A stretch of 33,312 nt of DNA from Gammaproteobacteria bacterium (GTDB lineage Bacteria > Pseudomonadota > Gammaproteobacteria > QNFE01). A program made the position numbers and the translations under genes. Shown here piece after piece: positions 22,641 to 23,291 of this stretch. The notes beneath the pieces were generated by a model that saw only the letters and a program-made list of their open reading frames with translations, was not told where the DNA came from and did not search any database. Position 1 is the stretch's first letter. Each line of letters begins with the position of its first letter. The stretch lies in assembly GCA_003645455.1 (NCBI GenBank), contig QNFE01000019.1, positions 1-33,312 on the forward strand. The letters run 5' to 3'.

Positions 22641-22646
22641 TTCCCT

Positions 22647-22747
22647 ATCGGAGGTGGGACTTTTGGAGTTGCCTACGGCGATGTCCCACTCTTGCAACTT
22701 GTTCCCCAATTGAAAGTGGGACTTTAGTCCCGCCCTTGCAACTTGTT
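22647..22747. repeat. GGGAC-hairpin repeat cluster
   Basis: Two related hairpins lie in tandem. The first pairs GTGGGAC (22,654-22,660) with GTCCCAC (22,683-22,689). The second is AAGTGGGACTTTAGTCCCGC plus CC (22,714-22,735), in which GGGAC and GTCCC flank TTTA. A 13-bp direct repeat CTTGCAACTTGTT stands at 22,691-22,703 and 22,735-22,747. The second hairpin recurs exactly at 32,209-32,230. This is a dispersed intergenic repeat; its origin is unknown to me. Confidence 0.7.
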
Positions 22748-22878
22748 GCAATATATACAATAAAAACGGCAATTTGAAACTTGCAAAAAACATGGCTTTT
22801 TATCTCGCAATTGTTTAAGTATGCATTACCATCGTGGACGATGGGAACGAGCCAATAGCGGCAAATAATTCAAAGCAT

Positions 22879-23241
22879 TTATTTCCCTCCTGAACCATGA
22901 CAATACTTACAATCTCGTTCGCCACAACCATTACAATCGGAACAATCAACCTTGCCACAACCATTACAATCGGAACAATCAATCGTGTCAAAACCATTGC
23001 AATCTGGACAGCTAACCTCACCAGAGCCATCGCAATCTGGACAAGTGCTATCATGTTTGTCGCAACAATCAATCTCACCAGAACCATTGCAATTTTGACA
23101 ATCAACATTGCCACAATAACACTCAGAGCAATTTTCTTTTCCAGAACCTTCACAACCAGCACATTCTACTTTTCCATCACCATAGCACCAAGAGCAATTT
23201 TCTTTTCCAGAACCTTCACAATATGGACAACTTTCAGACAC
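22879..23241 (-). CDS. Cysteine-rich protein of tandem DnaJ-type CxxCxGxG repeats
   Basis: The 120-aa protein is almost entirely made of 11-residue units of the form CxxCxGxGxxx; ten CxxC pairs and 25 cysteines are present (examples CPYCEGSG, CAGCEGSG, CQNCNGSG, CSDCNGCG). The unit is also visible in DNA as an exact 28-nt direct repeat at 22,922-22,949 and 22,955-22,982, 33 nt apart. The unit resembles the zinc-binding centre of DnaJ, but there is no J domain, no substrate-binding domain and no signal peptide. Expected chemistry is zinc binding and/or thiol-disulfide or holdase activity. The start is GTG with a strong SD (AGGAGG, 5 bp away). It lies between gdhA and glyQ. I do not recognise a characterised bacterial family with this exact build. 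Confidence 0.8.
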   Translation of the reverse strand: MSESCPYCEGSGKENCSWCYGDGKVECAGCEGSGKENCSECYCGNVDCQNCNGSGEIDCCDKHDSTCPDCDGSGEVSCPDCNGFDTIDCSDCNGCGKVDCSDCNGCGERDCKYCHGSGGK

Positions 23242-23291
23242 TGCACCTCCTTATATAATAATTTTGATTGAAATTAATTCCAATTTTTTAG

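Follow-up and report, generated by a model that had tools for sequence, protein, structure and literature searches.

In the cysteine-rich domain of DnaJ (PF00684; structure 1exk), CxxCxGxG units run antiparallel and form two four-Cys zinc sites; according to the 1exk structure paper, motif 1 reportedly pairs with motif 4, and motif 2 with motif 3. Thiol-reductase activity resides in the DnaJ zinc domain (PMC4428491). The BSD2 / ZnJ / DnaJE proteins (PF25436; structure 6ekb) are small, have no J domain and are built of 11-residue unit pairs, and BSD2 forms a hairpin with two zincs at its centre and four Cys holding each of them (PMC5859369). J-domain-less proteins of plants and algae bind zinc and need no ATP to hold unfolded proteins (PMC5818400, PMC7865324): ZnJ2 (PMC5818400) and ZnJ6 (PMC7865324) are zinc-binding holding chaperones of this kind, and disulfide isomerase activity has been reported for LQY1 (PMC4754418). 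Anti-TRAP (RtpA, PF15777) is a four-Cys zinc ribbon formed from CxxC motifs; it has one zinc site, 53 aa and a C-terminal trimer helix.

Here we describe a protein that has the units of DnaJ and the small size, the 11-residue unit pairs, the missing J domain and, in its proposed form, the zinc-centred hairpin of BSD2. It is encoded on a 33,312-nt stretch of gammaproteobacterial DNA (contig QNFE01000019.1; hereafter the window). Whereas DnaJ carries 2+2 irregularly spaced units between its J and C-terminal domains, and BSD2 is a 2+2 plastid protein of plants and algae, the array protein consists of ten paired motifs, 5+5, standing alone. The 2+2 hairpin of DnaJ and BSD2 is already known; of the n+n layout we found no description in searches of open-access literature.

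A 5+5 array gene between gdhA and glyQ

The array protein consists of five CxxCxGxG units, an 11-residue loop and five further units, with gaps of 11,11,11,10,19,11,11,11,11, so that the unit number is even and the longest gap lies exactly at the centre (Table 1). Cys residues match at a lag of 11 residues in 17 cases, against a maximum of 11 in 20,000 residue shuffles, which bears out the 25 Cys in 120 residues with an 11-residue period of the original prediction. That prediction had also described a near-regular array of about ten units: the 11-residue units hold, but the array is not continuous, and the segment EIDCCDKHDST, which had been placed within it, is the central loop. An exact DNA repeat with a 33-nt period had been noted as well; it lies in the right arm and measures 29 rather than 28 nt, and a second exact repeat, of 31 nt with a 66-nt period, lies in the left arm. 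A DNA pattern that demands three perfect 11-residue units in a row matches the window twice, both times inside the array ORF, and matches none of 100 window shuffles.

Table 1. Features of the array gene and its surroundings, in window coordinates
Feature	Position	Strand	Details
Stand-alone CxxCxGxG array ORF	22879-23241	-	GTG start; 120 aa; 25 Cys and 20 Gly
Left arm, units 1-5	23077-23229	-	CPYCEGSG, CSWCYGDG, CAGCEGSG, CSECYCGN, CQNCNGSG
Central loop	23044-23076	-	EIDCCDKHDST, with 2 extra Cys
Right arm, units 6-10	22888-23043	-	CPDCDGSG, CPDCNGFD, CSDCNGCG, CSDCNGCG, CKYCHGSG
Left-arm exact repeat	23125-23221	-	31 nt, 66-nt period; copies 23191-23221 and 23125-23155
Right-arm exact repeat	22921-22982	-	29 nt, 33-nt period; copies 22954-22982 and 22921-22949
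Shine-Dalgarno AAGGAGG	23246-23252	-	4 nt before GTG
Sigma-70-like promoter match	23255-23283	-	TTGGAA-17-TATTAT; 9/12 consensus positions, not above chance
Palindromic dispersed repeat	22643-22751		Intergenic, between array gene and glyQ

An open frame alone is weak evidence of a gene at this place because other frames also stay open under a 33-nt period. The Shine-Dalgarno sequence of the array gene (TAAGGAGG) is the longest match among the 20 window genes compared, and synonymous codon usage scores +0.24 bits/codon in the array ORF (neighbouring genes: 0.20 to 0.36) as against -0.17 and -0.03 in the two shadow ORFs that overlap it. Given this Shine-Dalgarno sequence and codon usage in that frame only, the array ORF is likely translated. 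GC at its codon position 3 is 21%. At the paired positions Cys is encoded by 14 TGT and 6 TGC codons, and all four Gly codons are used at conserved positions, indicating that the amino acids were kept while the DNA varied. A drifting minisatellite, open by chance and coding for no functional protein, would account for the exact 33-nt and 66-nt repeats and for the other frames that period-33 DNA opens; the ribosome-binding and codon signals, the mixed Cys and Gly codons and a 5+5 symmetry common to independent proteins all speak against it, and we disfavour it as highly improbable.

The array gene is flanked by gdhA and glyQ on the same strand. The palindromic dispersed repeat between the array gene and glyQ (GTGGGACTTTAGTCCCGCC ... 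CTTGCAACTTGTTGCAA) has 19 matching places in the genome, and the only terminator-like stem found in that interval lies inside it.

A fragment of a longer dnaJ gene was ruled out. The genome (2.06 Mb, 98% complete) contains one match to the DnaJ central domain, which belongs to its only DnaJ, a 378-aa open frame on another contig (C20); a profile of 5+5 arrays retrieved the array protein and this DnaJ, and nothing else in the genome. The 120-aa ORF begins at the array, has no Pfam match to a J domain and lacks the C-terminal domain, supporting the earlier description of DnaJ/BSD2-type zinc motifs in an array that stands alone, with no J domain. Its scores were 10.7 bits against PF00684 (curated cut-off 32.7), 15.3 bits against PF25436 (cut-off 27) and 15.8 against the anti-TRAP model NF058604 (cut-off 65), and none of the Pfam and NCBIfam models that it touched was matched above its curated cut-off. 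Its best match by sequence in the PDB is the DnaJ cysteine-rich domain 1exk (E 1.3e-4).

Equal arms among related arrays

The original prediction had proposed a search for homologues with the same repeat period, and we scanned viral and genome contigs with the spaced DNA pattern for three perfect 11-residue units: arrays are present in at least 120 viral and at least 116 genome stretches, from Bacteroidales, Shewanella, Spirochaetes, Planctomycetota, Lokiarchaeota, other archaea including haloarchaea, and huge phages. Searches of viral and genome contigs with back-translated peptides gave no matches, although the spaced pattern did find arrays. About 165 phage, bacterial and archaeal proteins among the matches listed have an n+n layout. 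The scan does not select for symmetry, since three units are needed on one arm only.

We examined the position of the longest gap in complete ORFs in which one gap is clearly longest (n = 176 among the matches listed), leaving the array protein of the window out of the set from which the n+n rule was drawn. The longest gap was exactly central in 139 of these arrays, whereas 23.6 are expected at random placement (3+3: 56; 4+4: 42; 5+5: 30; 6+6: 6; 7+7: 2; 8+8: 1; 9+9: 2). By source, again among the matches listed, it was central in 89 of 94 viral and 50 of 82 genome arrays. When arrays were grouped into families by flanking sequence or identity (n = 53), the symmetric total came to 37.4, where 6.6 were expected and no more than 17 were reached in any of 20,000 simulations. 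Loci fetched later had a central gap in 27 of 28 cases, a replication that is not fully independent, as they come from the same collection and in part from the same families.

Among the matches listed, 167 of 197 arrays have an even number of units, as do about 60 of 75 families. Among the even arrays listed, 116 of 167 have perfectly palindromic gap vectors (21.9 after shuffling), and palindromic vectors also exist where there is no long loop (e.g., 13,11,11,11,10,11,11,11,13). Symmetry is lacking in about 21% of arrays that have a clear loop. Mirrored units showed no coupling in Gly degeneracy (14 vs. 13.8 expected), and charge pairing between mirrored linkers differed slightly.

The n+n proteins (e.g., loci L140, L083, L112, L180, L171, L244, and L029) share with the array protein the unit, the 11-residue period and the central loop, and many of them are 5+5; they differ in that most carry extra domains and that a signal peptide is common in the bacterial ones that stand alone. 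In an alignment of the array protein with 25 other 5+5 arrays (31-48% identity), the columns correspond one to one and 20/20 paired Cys are invariant; this identity leaves descent unproven because composition inflates it between arrays of the same motif. The array with the best BLAST score, likewise 5+5, comes from Sphaerotilus sulfidivorans, where it is part of a 734-aa protein (39% identity across 120 aa).

Several protein families were seen among these matches. In one phage family of 255-324 aa, with about 70 viral loci (e.g., L060:597-1568, L085:4069-4983, L115:6056-6934), conserved sequence on the N- and C-terminal sides encloses an n+n array; PHROG scans of representatives gave no match, and L060 and L038 matched only the DnaJ central domain in Pfam, below cut-off. 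A large-phage family of 485-570 aa (L058:978-2633, L112, L029, L031) combines a common N-terminal part with a C-terminal array of 4+4 to 7+7, and the one member scanned had no PHROG match. In bacterial and haloarchaeal proteins of 550-740 aa (L158, L216, L244, L267, L188) the array is followed by hydrophobic, membrane-like segments; L158 of this group had no Pfam or NCBIfam match, and bacterial array-bearing membrane proteins reach 550-1000 aa. Stand-alone arrays of rumen Bacteroidales (L161, L204, L205, L223, L265) begin with a signal-peptide or lipoprotein-like sequence, and their end gaps, of 13 residues, are mirrored.

A putative five-zinc hairpin and its possible function

The simplest reading of the central gap and the palindromic gap vectors is that units pair as mirror images across a hairpin, and judging from these sequence patterns they probably do so with one zinc per pair. 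The array protein would then be a small cytosolic protein built as a single long hairpin whose antiparallel arms are DnaJ/BSD2-type zinc motifs, with five units leading out, a turn at EIDCCDKHDST and five units leading back. Unit 1 would pair with the last unit, unit 2 with the one before it, and the remaining left-arm units with the right arm in reverse order, each pair holding one zinc by four Cys; five Zn(Cys)4 sites would thus occupy 20 of the 25 Cys, and the whole would be a 5+5 extension of the cysteine-rich hairpin that DnaJ and BSD2 have as 2+2. Under the n+n rule the 5+5 layout predicts five zinc sites, which makes the earlier proposal of up to five plausible, and we regard a hairpin with five metal sites as likely.

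Of five AlphaFold models of the array protein, one reached a pLDDT of 74 and the other four 28 to 33; in the former both termini are confident (86-91), the middle is at 50 and a short strand is predicted at every linker. A 3+3 relative yielded no confident model, at a pLDDT of 41. Foldseek searches of the PDB with the array model returned the DnaJ cysteine-rich domain 1exk first, BSD2 (6ekb) second and then DNAJA2; TM-scores, taken over the query, were low at 0.18 to 0.34, and E-values were all at or above 0.001. Anti-TRAP ranked lower, with a local 36-column match (rmsd 1.3-1.9), and its C-terminal trimerisation helix has no counterpart in the AlphaFold model, which contains no helix. Given the low pLDDT of most models and the low TM-scores, these predictions are supportive but weak as evidence for the hairpin.

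By analogy with DnaJE/BSD2-type proteins, we tentatively suggest that the array protein may bind or hold client proteins in a thiol- and zinc-dependent way that needs no ATP, perhaps alongside a weak disulfide-exchange activity. To the reading as a whole, a five-zinc hairpin with a chaperone-like role, we assign a probability of roughly 0.45. The neighbouring genes gdhA and glyQ give no pointer to a client.

A metal store or buffer, metallothionein-like and with the holding of zinc (or Cd, Cu) in a thiol-rich array as its main job, would suit a protein of about 12.5 kDa with 25 Cys in 120 residues and five possible sites for metal, and rumen bacteria have many versions, secreted or lipoprotein-like, that could bind metal too. 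The strict CxxCxGxG spacing, the conserved Gly and the n+n layout exceed what a store needs, the array is one domain of 500-1000 aa proteins in many relatives, and no metallothionein family in Pfam or NCBIfam matched the array protein; we consider this role unlikely.

The host genome encodes SoxB, DsrA and the RuBisCO large subunit, all scoring over curated cut-offs; the RuBisCO gene (G000:C2:63081-63974) and soxB (C2:9545-11263) are on one contig and dsrA is on C4. By these genes the host is a sulfur-oxidising autotroph; the original prediction had called it a probable sulfur oxidiser. RuBisCO is a conceivable client if the hairpin clamps one partner rigidly, in the manner of BSD2 with RbcL or anti-TRAP with TRAP, both of which bind a single partner through such zinc modules (PMC5859369, PMC11255114). 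Such a specific regulator or assembly factor is, in our estimate, about as improbable as a metal store: no partner gene adjoins the array gene, BSD2 homologues are reported only from plants and algae (PMC5859369), other RuBisCO bacteria manage without BSD2, and the anti-TRAP score falls far below its cut-off.

The sox and dsr genes, and a best BLAST-scoring array from S. sulfidivorans that is also 5+5, could fit a polysulfide or sulfane-sulfur carrier or a thiol redox buffer. Similar arrays occur, however, in rumen Bacteroidales, Shewanella, haloarchaea and phages, most of them unlinked to sulfur oxidation, and the three-unit pattern is absent from the other 368 genomes of the class searched; no evidence for a sulfane-sulfur carrier was found, and we judge sulfur chemistry very unlikely. 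Orthologue searches in 56 and 369 genomes of the class gave DnaJ-type matches only. The host genes leave room for a part in thiol/sulfur stress or RuBisCO assembly, both conceivable, and nothing found points to either.

Matched arms and a proposed zinc-ladder fold

Each arm of the array gene carries a recent exact duplication, at a two-unit distance in the left arm and at a one-unit distance in the right. These separate events indicate that each gain of units affects a single arm, and still the two arms are equal in unit number. Comparison of the sequences suggests that unit number is probably not free; with equal arms kept in related arrays, gain or loss of units should be paired. We think it rather probable that the DnaJ/BSD2 hairpin marks the short end of a zinc-ladder fold that is widespread and has n = 2 to at least 9 paired rungs, lengthened on both arms in phages, bacteria and archaea, and that the array protein is a bare five-rung ladder.

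If so, a rule of equal unit numbers around one loop would predict the structure and metal count of many unannotated phage and prokaryote proteins, which fall under Pfam and PHROG thresholds. The family would also offer a natural ruler series for the role of the DnaJ zinc hairpin in the absence of a J domain, with the array protein as its minimal stand-alone case, and it raises the evolutionary question of how arms stay matched though units duplicate on a single arm.
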